14,253 nt of DNA from Candidatus Poribacteria bacterium (GTDB lineage Bacteria > Poribacteria > DTPJ01 > WJIO01), in assembly GCA_014730235.1 (NCBI GenBank), contig WJIO01000248.1, positions 1 to 14,253 on the forward strand, given 5' to 3'. Each line of letters opens with the position of its first letter. The stretch's first letter is position 1. Below, one piece after another: positions 2,509-10,672 of the stretch. The translations under genes and the position numbers were made by a program. The notes below the pieces were generated by a model that had not been told where the DNA came from, ran no database searches, and saw only the letters and a program-made list of their open reading frames with translations.

Positions 2509-3743
2509 AAGTAAAAATAAACAACCATGCGCTGGACCGCATACCCCTTTCAATTATATTTGATGATTCCACTGTTCTTGTTAATCTCAATTACTTCTGG
2601 ATGAGGGATAGAAATCCCTTAGATGGTCAAGGGCGACACTGGGAATATGTACCAGTGGTGCATCCTGAGTCTTTTACGCGAGAGTTTGCCGAATGGTGCC
2701 TGGAAAACGGCGTTAAAGGTAAATTTAGCATCGTTCCATGTCCTGCGGCTCTGGGACGTATCGATCATGGACTTCCCATGTTCAGCAAGCAACAGCAGGA
2801 TAGCTGGCTGGATATGTGCCGGGAGTTTATTGTTCCATCTTTTGACATAACACCTGAGATGATGACCCATTCTTATGTTGTGGATCTGGAGACATTTCAA
2901 CCTCTGGAATCCCGAATATGGGAACAGTATGAGTGGCAAACGCTGCCTATGGATCAGGAGGAGCTTGTATTTAATTATATCGCCACAGCCTGCCAGATAT
3001 TAAAAAACGTGGGTCTTACACCCGAAGGTGTAACATCCCCCGGCGGCTTTGGCGGTAAGACCCTGGAATTTTATGCAAAGGTGTCTGGGTTAGCTCTCCG
3101 GGAAGTTACAGGCAACCCGACTCCCTATTTCTTCAAACGCTTCTCCGACGATGCTAAAGCTCCAGTGTGGTATATTGATCGAAAGGCCGGAACGGCTGTA
3201 GGTGAAGTAACAGCATCAACCGGCGACTGGACAGGCTCATGGACTGGATATGAACAGGTCAGCGTTGATAAATACATTACAGCCGATCTCCAGGGAGGCC
3301 GGGTTCCAGCTCTTCTGAATGCGGGAAATCCTGTGGTATTTTGCAGTCACTGGCAGGGGTTTTATGGCATGCACAATGACGACCGTCGGGGATTTAACAC
3401 TTTTAAAACAGTGGTAAAGCGAATTCAGGAGATCGATCCGGATGGAGAAAAAACTCAATGGCGTAAATGCAGCGAGATTACTAACTATTCCTGTGCCAAA
3501 GAGATGACAGAGATAAGTATTAAAGACAATACCATTGAGTTTGATCTGCCGGTTCTTGTGCCTGATTTTACCATCAGGATAACAGGGGTGGATATCAAAG
3601 GAGTATCTGTGGATGGTGAATTTTTAAAGAAAACAAACTCCAAAAGCGGGTTTAAAAGCGGTACATTTTTTGTGGATAATGTAGTTACTCTTGTTGCTTT
3701 TGATCCGAAAAAGCGTAATGTGAAAATGGAGATAATGAAATGA
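2505..3743 (+). CDS. Polysaccharide deacetylase-like (NodB-type beta/alpha barrel) protein
   Basis: The protein has 412 residues from ATG 2505, with AAGGA eight bases upstream and an ATGA overlap with the previous stop. An in-frame ATG at 2463 would bury the start in the upstream gene. There is no signal peptide, so it is predicted to be cytoplasmic. The early strand SIIFDD (residues 16-21) resembles the NodB metal/catalytic Asp motif. A strand near 74-77 (FSIV), THSYVVD with H122 (121-127), a TSPGGFGG turn and a late CSHWQGF segment fit a divergent deacetylase barrel with His/Asp metal ligands. The usual second His of the H-x3-H motif is not obvious, so the enzyme may be divergent or act on another amide. 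The C-terminal about 70 residues look beta-rich. The assignment rests on motif shape only, and the product is best read as hypothetical with a deacetylase-like fold. It is translationally coupled to both neighbours. Confidence 0.5.
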   Translation: MKVKINNHALDRIPLSIIFDDSTVLVNLNYFWMRDRNPLDGQGRHWEYVPVVHPESFTREFAEWCLENGVKGKFSIVPCPAALGRIDHGLPMFSKQQQDSWLDMCREFIVPSFDITPEMMTHSYVVDLETFQPLESRIWEQYEWQTLPMDQEELVFNYIATACQILKNVGLTPEGVTSPGGFGGKTLEFYAKVSGLALREVTGNPTPYFFKRFSDDAKAPVWYIDRKAGTAVGEVTASTGDWTGSWTGYEQVSVDKYITADLQGGRVPALLNAGNPVVFCSHWQGFYGMHNDDRRGFNTFKTVVKRIQEIDPDGEKTQWRKCSEITNYSCAKEMTEISIKDNTIEFDLPVLVPDFTIRITGVDIKGVSVDGEFLKKTNSKSGFKSGTFFVDNVVTLVAFDPKKRNVKMEIMK

Positions 3744-7271: not shown

Positions 7272-7325
7272 TAAACTTTGGCTCTTCCGGGTTCAGTGTG
7301 GTAAAGATAAGAAACTTCCTTATGC

Positions 7326-7353
7326 TGTCATTCCTGCGAAAGCAGGAATGACA
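7326..7353. repeat. Central 12-bp hairpin of copy 2 with GAAA loop
   Basis: TGTCATTCCTGC (7326-7337) and GCAGGAATGACA (7342-7353) are perfect complements around the loop GAAA, a GNRA-type loop closed by C-G. The same core arm opens the hairpin in copy 1 and appears once in copies 3 and 4. Confidence 0.9.
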
Positions 7354-7429
7354 AGCTGAGGGATAACCATACTGAACCCGCAAGAGCAAGAGTTTTCACA
7401 GACATAAATTTTATACCGAGCGATTTTTT

Positions 7430-7525: not shown

Positions 7526-8338
7526 ATGAAGTGTGAAAAAGATTTATTGAAGAAATCAGCTCATTTTATCATGGTTGGTATTTTAATAACATTCGTTATT
7601 ACTGGTTCACTTAGAGCTGACGTTGTTGCTGATGGATTGGTTGCCTATTGGTCCTTTGATGATGATACCATTGATGGGGATAATATTGCGGATATTGTAG
7701 GTGGAAATGACGGAATTCTAAACGGTGGCAATCTGGTGGCAAATGGAAAGATAAACTCCGCAATTGAATTTGATGGCGCGACTGAAATTGATATACCAGG
7801 TACTGAAGACCTGAATTTCAATGGCGCTGAGGAGATGACAGTAGCAGCATGGTTTAATCCTGACAGCGATGATCCTGTCGGTAATCAGGCAGCGGCTGGA
7901 TGCTGTGGTTCTATTGTAGCCCAGAGAGATGTTAACGGTTGGGCGTTAAGATATGACGGCAGAAATCCCGGACAGGAAATCGAATTTATTGTATCTCCAG
8001 GCTGGCAGGGAGATGCAGGATTTGGAGCCGCAAAGGTAGAACCAAATGGGTGGCATTATATTACCGGAGTTGTGGCTGTAGATATTATGAGGGTGTATCT
8101 GGACGGTGAATTGGTCATGGAACAACCTTTCTCAGGGCCTATGTCCACTACCGGAACTGAAACTGAAATAGGTTTAGCCAGTGATGGCAGCTTTATAGGG
8201 ATGATTGATGAAGTGGCTATATACAACAGGGCTTTGTCTGACGAAGAGGTAATGCAGAATTATGGATCAAACGTATTTTTCTCCGTTGACTACAGGAATA
8301 AACTGGCTATCTGTTGGGGTGATGTAAAAAGCAAATAG
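7526..8338 (+). CDS. Secreted LamG-domain (concanavalin-like) protein
   Basis: The protein has 270 residues, with AAAGGGG about 9 nt before ATG 7526. A basic N-terminus (KCEKDLLKK), a hydrophobic core (FIMVGILITFVITG) and LRA before D32 make a good signal peptide. A single LamG jelly roll follows at about 36-245: the classic GLVAYWSFDD opening, EEMTVAAWFNPDSDD, GWHYITGVVAVDIMRVYLDG and the closing GMIDEVAIYNRALSDEEV. Such domains bind glycans or protein ligands outside the cell. Four cysteines, including a CC pair near residue 130, could form a disulfide. Residues 252-268 repeat the tail motif seen in the 4558 gene (F-x-V-D-x3-K-L-x3-W-G-x-V-K). It has its own promoter (7430-7458) and lies upstream of the GH-A gene, separated from it by repeat copy 3. 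Confidence 0.9.
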   Translation: MKCEKDLLKKSAHFIMVGILITFVITGSLRADVVADGLVAYWSFDDDTIDGDNIADIVGGNDGILNGGNLVANGKINSAIEFDGATEIDIPGTEDLNFNGAEEMTVAAWFNPDSDDPVGNQAAAGCCGSIVAQRDVNGWALRYDGRNPGQEIEFIVSPGWQGDAGFGAAKVEPNGWHYITGVVAVDIMRVYLDGELVMEQPFSGPMSTTGTETEIGLASDGSFIGMIDEVAIYNRALSDEEVMQNYGSNVFFSVDYRNKLAICWGDVKSK

Positions 8339-8341
8339 ATA

Positions 8342-8422
8342 AAATAGTTTTGGTTTTTCCGGGTTTAGTGTGATAATAATAAGAAATCTCTATATTCTGT
8401 CATTCTTGCTTGCACAGGAAGG
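8342..8422. repeat. Palindromic repeat element, copy 3 (left half only)
   Basis: The left outer arm (tagttttggtttttccgggtt, from 8345) and inner segment match copy 2. The hairpin arm TGTCATTCTTGC ends at 8409. The matching right half is degraded: cacaggaagg reads where caggaatgaca would be expected, and the gene at 8423 begins there. The segment 8375-8409 is an inverted match (31 of 35) to copy 4 at 10183-10217. Confidence 0.7.
8416..8422 (+). promoter_or_regulatory. Repeat-derived ribosome binding site directly abutting ATG 8423
   Basis: AGGAAGG ends on the base before ATG 8423, which is too close for normal use of that ATG. The in-frame ATGs at 8435 and 8438 are 12 and 15 nt downstream and may be the real starts. 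The purine stretch lies in the degraded right arm of repeat copy 3. Confidence 0.4.
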
Positions 8423-10192
8423 ATGGTTTTAATTATGATGTTTCCGGCTTATATTGCTATATTGGGAATTATTGCGAATGTCAGAGCAGATGCGAACATG
8501 GCAAATCCCATAAGACTTTCTTCAGATGGTTGGTTTCGATACGAAAACAATAAGCACTATATACCATTAGGTGGTTTTCATGGTAACGTTATTCCTATTT
8601 CTCTGCTTAATTTAACAGAGGAAGAGAAAAAACATTTTGAACCACGATTATGGAACGGTCATATTGATCTTTATGATGCTACAGAAAAGGTATTGCATCA
8701 GTGGTTCAGCTTTTTACAGGAAAATGGTGTAACAAGTCTTAGACTTTTCCCAAGAGCAAACGTTGGAGTTGATGTGCTGGATTTGTGCGGTAAGGTGAAT
8801 ATGGAGTTATGGGAAGCTTTTCATCGGGCCTTTACTACTGCCGCAGATTATGATATACGGTTTTTGCTCCAGATAATGCCAGAACCGGGTAGAACAGGCT
8901 ATCTCAACAAAGACGCGCTGAAAAAACATGTATTACCTAAATTCACCGACGAAGATAAAAAGGAACTTACTCCCTCACAAAAGCACTTTATACTGGAAAA
9001 AGACACAGTCAGTATGAGGAAATATTTCACCGATCCTGATGTTCTGGAATGTCATAAGCTTTATCTTAGGCGCGTTCTAAAGCTTGTAGCGGATGAACCC
9101 CAGATTTTTGCCCTGGAAATATATAACGAACAGGGTTGGGGTGGTGTAAAAGTCAATGACAAATGGGAACACAGCTTTAATTATTTTCTGGAAAATGATG
9201 AAATTCAGTGGTCAAAGGAGATCACAGAAGCCATAAAGCAGGAACTACCGGAAATGCCGGTGTGCTTGTCTCATCCGGGCTTTGGAGTAACGGGTTTTGA
9301 TCCTTTCAGATGGAGTATAGGTGCAGGTGTGGATTTTTACTCACAGCACTTATACGCTGGTCTCTGTGGTGCAGAGGAAGACATTGACTTTTCAGCAGTC
9401 ACAGCCGCAACCTCCGCTATAATAAGCGCGGCTATACCCAATTCTCCCGGTGAATGGGGAATATTGGACAGTAAAGCACCTGCAAATATAAGACACAGAG
9501 GACATCGCGACGCTATATGGCTTAATATGCTTACCGGTAGCAATGGTTTCATGCAGTGGGAGTATGATTTTCCACAGGAGTATAAATGGGTCAAGAAGGT
9601 ATACGATTCTATACCTGAAGGTTTCAAACCGGATTTTTCAGACCATGTATCAGTGGAGATCGTTGAGGAGTATAAAGCGTTTCAGACGGATACCCGCTAT
9701 CCCATGTTTTCTTCAGAGGAATGGTTTAATCCATGGGAGTTTAACCGTTTGAAGCATAAGGACGAAAACATAAGGAAAATATATGCCGCATACTGGAAAT
9801 CTCTGGAAGATGGTGTACCTATACATTTTACTATGAACGGAGATGATTCTATACTGTTGGAAGATTTCCTGTCGGGAAAGTTATCAACCGAAAAAGCTAT
9901 AGAAGCAGAAGGCGGCTATCAGCTATCATACCTACCATTGAGTAATGGCGATAAGCGCATTTATATAGCATACCTGCGGAGTCGCAAGATAGAGAATTTC
10001 AGTGGTCATATTCTCGGTGTACCTGTGAAGAGGTCTTTGGATGTTATAGTTAACCAACCAGTTAGTTATACAATACAGATAATTGATCTTAACACAGAAG
10101 ACATTTCAGTATATACAGCCGCCGGTAAAAGGGAATTTCATCTGGGAGATAAGTCTGACCATGACTTTGTTCTTGTAATATCGCAGGAATGA
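8423..10192 (+). CDS. Secreted clan GH-A glycoside hydrolase (GH5-like TIM barrel)
   Basis: The protein has up to 589 residues; ATG 8435 or 8438 is an alternative start (see ribosome site). A hydrophobic N-terminus (MMFPAYIAILGIIANVRADA) looks like a signal peptide with cleavage near A22 or A24, but it lacks basic residues before the core. The barrel contains GVTSLRLFPRAN (about 102-113), FLLQIMPEP (about 147-155), LEIYNEQGW with N235-E236 as likely acid/base, QHLY with H309 and Y311 as the usual beta-6 pair, and SPGEWG with E344 as likely nucleophile. These spacings fit clan GH-A retaining enzymes such as cellulases and mannanases; the family and substrate are not resolved. A beta-rich C-terminal domain of about 100 residues follows. 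The last codons (Q-E-stop) lie in repeat copy 4. The gene is between inverted half-repeats. Confidence 0.75.
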   Translation: MVLIMMFPAYIAILGIIANVRADANMANPIRLSSDGWFRYENNKHYIPLGGFHGNVIPISLLNLTEEEKKHFEPRLWNGHIDLYDATEKVLHQWFSFLQENGVTSLRLFPRANVGVDVLDLCGKVNMELWEAFHRAFTTAADYDIRFLLQIMPEPGRTGYLNKDALKKHVLPKFTDEDKKELTPSQKHFILEKDTVSMRKYFTDPDVLECHKLYLRRVLKLVADEPQIFALEIYNEQGWGGVKVNDKWEHSFNYFLENDEIQWSKEITEAIKQELPEMPVCLSHPGFGVTGFDPFRWSIGAGVDFYSQHLYAGLCGAEEDIDFSAVTAATSAIISAAIPNSPGEWGILDSKAPANIRHRGHRDAIWLNMLTGSNGFMQWEYDFPQEYKWVKKVYDSIPEGFKPDFSDHVSVEIVEEYKAFQTDTRYPMFSSEEWFNPWEFNRLKHKDENIRKIYAAYWKSLEDGVPIHFTMNGDDSILLEDFLSGKLSTEKAIEAEGGYQLSYLPLSNGDKRIYIAYLRSRKIENFSGHILGVPVKRSLDVIVNQPVSYTIQIIDLNTEDISVYTAAGKREFHLGDKSDHDFVLVISQE

Positions 10193-10220
10193 CAGCATAT
10201 AGAAGTTTCTTATTATTTCC
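10183..10220. repeat. Palindromic repeat element, copy 4 (half copy, reverse orientation)
   Basis: Read on the minus strand, this is aataataagaaacttctat, then atgctgtcattcctgc, matching the left inner segment of copy 2 (7303-7337; 31 of 35) and of copy 3 (31 of 35). It is therefore an inverted left half, not a right half. It overlaps the 3' end of the GH-A gene and supplies its stop codon (TGA 10190-10192). Similarity fades beyond about 10220. Confidence 0.75.
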
Positions 10221-10255
10221 AGATCATACCTTGAAGAAATATAAAAATAAATCAT

Positions 10256-10672
10256 ATGAAAAGATATGAAATAATAGACCATACTGCTGATATAGGTATT
10301 ACTGCTTATGGTAGGGATTTGCCTGAAACTTTTTCGAATGCAGCCTATGCCATGTTCGATATTCTTACTGAAATTGATGGTATCAGAGAAATTCAGAGTA
10401 ACGATATAAAAGTTTCAGCAGATGATATTCAGGACCTGTTAATCGCATGGCTGGATGAACTGCTTTTTATATACGAAACTGAGTATTTTCTTTGCAGAAG
10501 AACAGCTATTGAGTATATAGACGAAACCAGTCTAAAAGCCCATGTCTTCGGGGAGAAAATCGATCCCCGAAGACATGATATAAAGCTGGAAATAAAAAGT
10601 GTTACATATCATCAGCATAAGGTAGAAAAAACAGAAGATGGCTATCAGGCAAGGGTTATATTCGATTTATAA
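10256..10672 (+). CDS. Archease (RtcB RNA ligase activator family)
   Basis: The protein has 138 residues, the usual length. Archease speeds guanylylation and turnover of the RNA ligase RtcB, acting in the cytosol in RNA repair or tRNA ligation. Family marks are clear: YEIIDHTADIGI at the N-terminus with D12, the middle LIAWLDELLFIYETE, then GEKIDPRRHDIKLEIKSVTYH (about 99-119) and the terminal IFDL with D137; the Asp and His residues are the known metal-site type. No RtcB gene is in the window. The Shine-Dalgarno signal is weak (GAAG about 18 nt away, then an A/T-rich stretch). Its DNA contains a perfect 14-bp inverted repeat at 10541-10577. It converges on the minus-strand operon with only 9 nt between stops. 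Confidence 0.93.
   Translation: MKRYEIIDHTADIGITAYGRDLPETFSNAAYAMFDILTEIDGIREIQSNDIKVSADDIQDLLIAWLDELLFIYETEYFLCRRTAIEYIDETSLKAHVFGEKIDPRRHDIKLEIKSVTYHQHKVEKTEDGYQARVIFDL
10541..10577. repeat. Perfect 14-bp inverted repeat inside the archease gene
   Basis: CATGTCTTCGGGGA (10541-10554) and TCCCCGAAGACATG (10564-10577) are exact reverse complements with a 9-nt loop. The encoded segment, AHVFGEKIDPRRHD, is ordinary archease sequence, so the symmetry lies in codon choice and not in an insertion. It is unrelated in sequence to the GTCATTCCTGC repeat family. Confidence 0.85.

Follow-up and report, generated by a model that had tools for sequence, protein, structure and literature searches.

A gene for a putative secreted enzyme from Candidatus Poribacteria lies between two inverted half-copies of a palindromic repeat. 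Was it moved or captured as a cassette between the halves, or did the repeat arrive separately at both ends of a gene that was already there, where it may have been domesticated as expression signals? The initial annotation offered both readings and held that the coincidence of reading-frame and repeat borders was hard to explain by chance. The stretch analysed here, referred to as the window (14,253 nucleotides), is the entire contig C178 of a 5.53 Mb assembly in 451 contigs. The gene order is sigma factor, zf-HC2/TPR protein, LamG protein (7526–8338), enzyme ORF (8423–10192) and archease (10256–10672), leaving gaps of 84 bp and 63 bp on the 5′ and 3′ sides of the enzyme ORF, respectively. 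The LamG protein is one of a much expanded family, for which this genome gives ~60 matches and most relatives give tens.

The bracketed ORF (forward strand) encodes a glycoside-hydrolase-like protein of 589 aa that is clan GH-A-like, with NE and GEWG motifs and weak similarity to a GH5 mannanase. Clan GH-A enzymes have a TIM barrel carrying two catalytic glutamates. A Pfam search of the protein returned no match, and a single-sequence structure model (pLDDT 34) was too poor for use. Only remote relatives of the gene are detectable in 84 genomes of the phylum. The better of these, in genome G039, shows 28% identity along the alignment and shares the NE pair (235–236) and E344 with the enzyme.

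A modular family with the anatomy of a miniature transposon

The repeat family was sampled in 1.39 Mb of the genome, about a quarter, taken as loci. Genome-wide there are 234 perfect core palindromes of the form TGTCATTCCTGC-(0–12)-GCAGGAATGACA and a first look gave 859 candidates for whole elements. The sample holds 384 core arms, compared with about 6 expected by chance, and 228 copies, 215 of them fully intergenic. A full copy consists of a half A, the core palindrome TGTCATTCCTGC-loop-GCAGGAATGACA and a half B′, as in the copy upstream of the LamG gene (7277–7387, forward strand). Another copy at the contig start (1–159, forward strand) has a C-type module, a core with a 25-nt loop and a B′ module. 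Sequences flanking the arms sort into a few modules, namely A (131), B (123), C, D, E, F and G. The A-B′ pairing accounts for 82–93 of about 166–169 paired copies, with A-D (14), B-C (11) and A-A (3) also seen. The two halves within one copy agree on average at 21.8 of 35 positions, and at 31 or more in just 1 of 96 copies, whereas halves of the same module often reach at least 31/35. Loops come in discrete lengths: 4 nt (109 copies), 24–26 nt (23), 45–54 nt (28) and 89 nt (4). Inside the longer ones there is often a second palindrome, nested and fixed in size (GGAATCCAG...CTGGATTCC or TTCAAGCTTTTTGAAAAAGCTTGAA; loci L055, L061, L072, L115, L170 and others), and from these nested palindromes the family looks as if insertion or exchange at the loop had built it.

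The terminal inverted repeats are ~25 bp long; modules A and B have in common the outer inverted repeat GGYTCTTCCGGGTTYAGTGTGGTAA, of the pattern GGTTCTTCCGGGTT.AGTGTGGTAA. Conservation drops just outside the GG of the terminal repeat, and direct repeats of 8 bp sit exactly there. Of 39 testable copies, 19 have identical 8-bp flanks and 25 have flanks agreeing at 7 or more positions, compared with 0.3% and 3.6%, respectively, for shuffled partners. The element between the duplications is mostly 120–175 bp long, with a cluster of lengths at 120–170 bp. Thus, the family is MITE-like, being short, non-coding and present in many copies, with terminal inverted repeats and 8-bp target duplications. 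Terminal repeats and duplications together indicate that it spread by transposition, for which a transposase would have been supplied in trans.

We sought a source for such a transposase. Only one pair of ends 400–4000 bp apart in the sample has matching flanks, and it proved to be two separate MITEs. Insertion sequences of the ISL3 family make 8-bp target duplications and have ends that start with GG. The element resembles them in both respects, and the genome contains three partial ISL3 transposase genes, cut by contig ends. The element's terminal repeat is seen on none of the three, and an ISL3 parent was not demonstrable, the ends of these fragments being either missing or without a match. 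A REP/RAYT origin was rejected, as the single Y1_Tnp gene is IS200-like and its locus has no core palindrome. The full element was not seen in relatives: just the core is shared, in G001, of the same order, and in G003, while the outer part is matched once, weakly, in G004. The exact pattern of terminal repeat plus module A gave no match in a collection of genome contigs, and Rfam none in the window.

Among known systems, type II MITEs of bacterial insertion sequences are alike in being short, non-coding and intergenic, with hundreds of copies, terminal inverted repeats and duplications of a fixed 8 bp. The element described here differs from them in having alternative halves (A–G) round one palindromic core and nested loops of 4, 25, 45–54 and 89 nt. 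The Neisseria dRS3/NIME core, ATTCCC(N8)GGGAAT (PMC3898611), has the same 6+8+6 geometry as the core found here, ATTCCT(N8)AGGAAT, with one base different in each arm. The two systems also share mosaic intergenic modules joined at a short palindrome; however, long terminal repeats and target duplications are features of the full copies here. The GTAG/CGTC REP palindromes are intergenic and can provide stop codons to adjacent genes (PMC3733652), but the present element is longer, has terminal repeats and target duplications, and has no REP-associated transposase beside its copies.

Two half-copies at the borders of the enzyme gene

The 5′ half-copy (8352–8409, forward strand; profile hit 8349–8409, 46 bits) is a module A running from the terminal inverted repeat GGTTTTTCCGGGTTTAGTGTGATAA... 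to the core arm TGTCATTCTTGC, and its right half is absent. A B-type remnant of that half, sought downstream inside the coding start, did not rise above background. The 3′ half-copy (10183–10240, reverse strand; profile hits 10182–10238 and 10183–10242) is likewise module A, truncated exactly at the palindrome centre, with a badly decayed terminal repeat. The two lie in opposite orientation with their cores toward the enzyme gene. The match of 31/35 between 8375–8409 and the reverse complement of 10183–10217, which the initial annotation gave together with its description of both as the left half in opposite orientation, was reproduced when recomputed.

The gene had been placed exactly between the halves, which is slightly too strong. 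At the 3′ border, the arm GCAGGAATGACA (10183–10194) overlaps the end of the ORF and, as had been noticed, holds CAG GAA, the last two sense codons, and the TGA stop. At the 5′ border, family similarity stops at 8409, 13 bases ahead of the ATG. A degenerate second arm, ACAGGAAGGATG (8414–8425, forward strand), follows at the standard 4-nt loop distance with 4 mismatches, that is 8/12 to GCAGGAATGACA, and looks like a true decayed remnant of the 5′ half-copy. It contains both AGGAAGG, attributed in the initial annotation to a degraded arm of the first half, and the ATG start; the AGGAAGG abuts the ATG and lacks the spacing of a normal Shine-Dalgarno site.

The 8-bp outer flank of the 5′ half-copy, at the position of a target duplication, is ATAGTTTT (8344–8351, forward strand). 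Its best downstream match is ATGGTTTT at 8423–8430, 7/8, containing the ATG. We rejected a target duplication ATAGTTTT/ATGGTTTT that regenerates the start codon, matches at that spacing occurring only at background frequency. A promoter-like pair in module A, ATGACA-16 nt-TATTAT (10/12), reads outward from the core at 10189–10216 (forward) and 8403–8376 (reverse). The pair in the 3′ half-copy is aimed at archease, 40 nt downstream, and is predicted from the consensus match only; a scan for such pairs gave 17 sites compared with 9.5 expected.

How closely are the two half-copies related? The two resemble each other far more than chance would allow, but this comes from membership of one family: a match of at least 31/35 to the 3′ half-copy is found in 65 of 294 sampled halves, itself counted. 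Since the halves of an ordinary element are dissimilar and those of the same module alike, the two are most likely from different copies. A single ordinary element split by the gene was rejected on the same ground, A-B′ copies having dissimilar halves. Both half-copies carry a rare variant, AATAATAAG, with 3 exact matches in the genome, and the best match of the 5′ half-copy in the sample is the 3′ one, tied with one other; the shared variant and this best match hint at a common source. The third AATAATAAG copy, on contig C392, matches the 3′ half-copy at every one of the inner 31 nt; its second arm is intact and its surroundings are quite different.

The outer flank of the 3′ half-copy, ATAAAAAT (10241–10248, forward strand), agrees with ATAGTTTT at 4/8, and the null for unrelated flanks peaks at 4–5 of 8. 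Equal 8-bp flanks would be expected of a unit moved by its outer ends. This mismatch is weighty, not absolute: drift is possible in both copies, which are old, and the 3′ end is decayed.

These observations bear on the idea that the enzyme gene entered the middle of a symmetric A-A′ palindrome, a rare form and a fragile site, of which the two half-copies would be the halves. The exact end of the 3′ half-copy at the palindrome centre and the uncommon AATAATAAG variant common to both agree with it, and A-A pairs do occur (3 of about 166). Yet the unrelated copy on C392 has the same 31 nt with its second arm intact, the 5′ half-copy appears to retain a decayed second arm, which is unexpected after a central insertion, and the outer flanks agree at 4/8. 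We regard such an insertion as improbable, if slightly less so than the composite transposon and the assembly artefact considered below.

Bracketing across the genome and the case for gene movement

If the gene had been moved, an empty site might survive in a relative. No enzyme orthologue with the same neighbours, and thus no such site, was found among the 84 phylum genomes. Different genes flank the LamG orthologues of 14 relatives, as they do a LamG paralogue of this genome. For a minimal mobile element, relatives would have various cassettes, or none, between the two flanking genes; LamG and archease are adjacent in no relative locus examined, and in G001 archease follows an aminotransferase. 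Comparison of composition, which the initial annotation had proposed, showed the enzyme gene to be average for the genome, with a GC of 0.408, a GC3 of 0.369, equal to the genome mean, and a codon deviation at the 43rd percentile. At the C-terminus, the G039 homologue ends in HDFLLLIEKPN and the enzyme in HDFVLVISQE, each directly before the stop. The 3′ half-copy starts just past the conserved protein end, consistent with the enzyme gene being older than that half-copy.

ORFs with copies within 100 bp at both ends number 20 of about 1000 sampled, compared with 10.3 ± 3.0 in simulations, and this excess over random placement is regional clustering. ORFs with facing solo halves number 1 observed against 0.15 expected (P = 0.13, all 55 solo copies, post hoc). 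Counting only the about a dozen strictly truncated half-copies in the sample gives P about 0.01 under random placement, again post hoc. Two facing half-copies round one gene are therefore mildly unusual, at a post hoc P of about 0.01–0.13, and not compelling. The initial annotation had proposed a search for other genes bracketed in this way, and no second case with facing solo halves was found in 1.39 Mb.

Nor are the borders as hard to explain by chance as had been argued. Copies in gaps of 84 and 63 bp must sit near an ORF edge, and the family fills short gaps, avoids coding sequence and brings an in-frame TGA in its arm; the ORF and repeat borders coincide because short gaps hold the elements and the arm carries this stop. 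At L053 (14767–14778), a module E half-copy gives the TGA stop to a 310-aa ORF (14769–15701, reverse strand), exactly like the 3′ half-copy, and in-frame TGA use recurs at L138 (6596), beside an unclassified arm. At L146, a 212-aa ORF lies between two full copies (2545–2692 and 3573–3719). Each of them has a perfect 8-bp duplication to itself (AAATATGT and AAATATTT), which clearly illustrates how independent insertions can bracket an ORF. At L149, one of the bracketing copies is enclosed by a perfect duplication of its own (8/8), as separate insertions predict.

Taken together, capture or movement of the gene as a cassette is possible but unsupported: the outer flanks agree at 4/8, GC and codon use are native, the half-copies are most likely not parts of one ordinary element, and the arm of the 3′ half-copy is identical to that of an unrelated copy. 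A specific form of it is a composite MITE transposon with the gene as passenger between inverted copies and the outer inverted repeats as ends, like the TIME-COMP of Pseudomonas, in which two inverted miniature elements surround a gene (PMC4133298). The arrangement here is alike, with inverted half-copies and terminal repeats outward, but without a matching outer target duplication. MITE-like elements can mobilise DNA lying between two copies (PMC4133298, PMC10969869), and the enzyme gene is without an orthologue at useful similarity in the 84 phylum genomes. Nevertheless, the outer flanks agree no better than unrelated ones, the codon use is native, the sample holds no second gene so bracketed, and the terminal repeat of the 3′ half-copy is badly decayed; a composite transposon is very unlikely. 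We give equally little credence to an assembly artefact, in which a short-read assembler would have joined unrelated segments at a near-identical repeat arm. The assembly is fragmented into 451 contigs, the window starts within a repeat copy and the 3′ half-copy has a 31-nt identical twin elsewhere. However, the shared stretch is short, the outer part of the 3′ half-copy is individual, and the ORF end is sensible, next to a conserved C-terminus. Least probable of all is that MITE halves recombining at the shared core capture whole genes and supply a start region and stop codon; if true, gene capture between half-copies would amount to a gene-cassette system in an uncultured phylum.

Proposed history and meaning

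We therefore consider it likely that the two half-copies are independent truncated MITE-like copies, inserted separately into the gaps before and after a resident enzyme gene, with their inner halves then lost. That the repeat came to each end separately was the other reading in the initial annotation, and it fits all the data. Under this history, an element spreading by transposition would have inserted twice, into the short intergenic spaces on either side of the existing gene. Each copy may later have lost its inner half, with the deletion ending near the palindrome centre, where a hotspot for deletions is likely. At the 3′ end, the coding sequence would have become joined to the arm of the half-copy, whose in-frame TGA then served as the stop and replaced the last few codons, although the order of these steps is conjectural. 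ORF and repeat edges would coincide because insertions or deletions cutting further into the gene were selected against.

The family, with interchangeable halves round one palindrome, is worth description in its own right. In a genome so rich in repeats, inverted repeats flanking a gene are weak evidence for a cassette. This locus suggests that a miniature transposon, when very abundant, shapes gene edges in bacteria: it fills intergenic gaps and can donate its own TGA to an adjacent gene.
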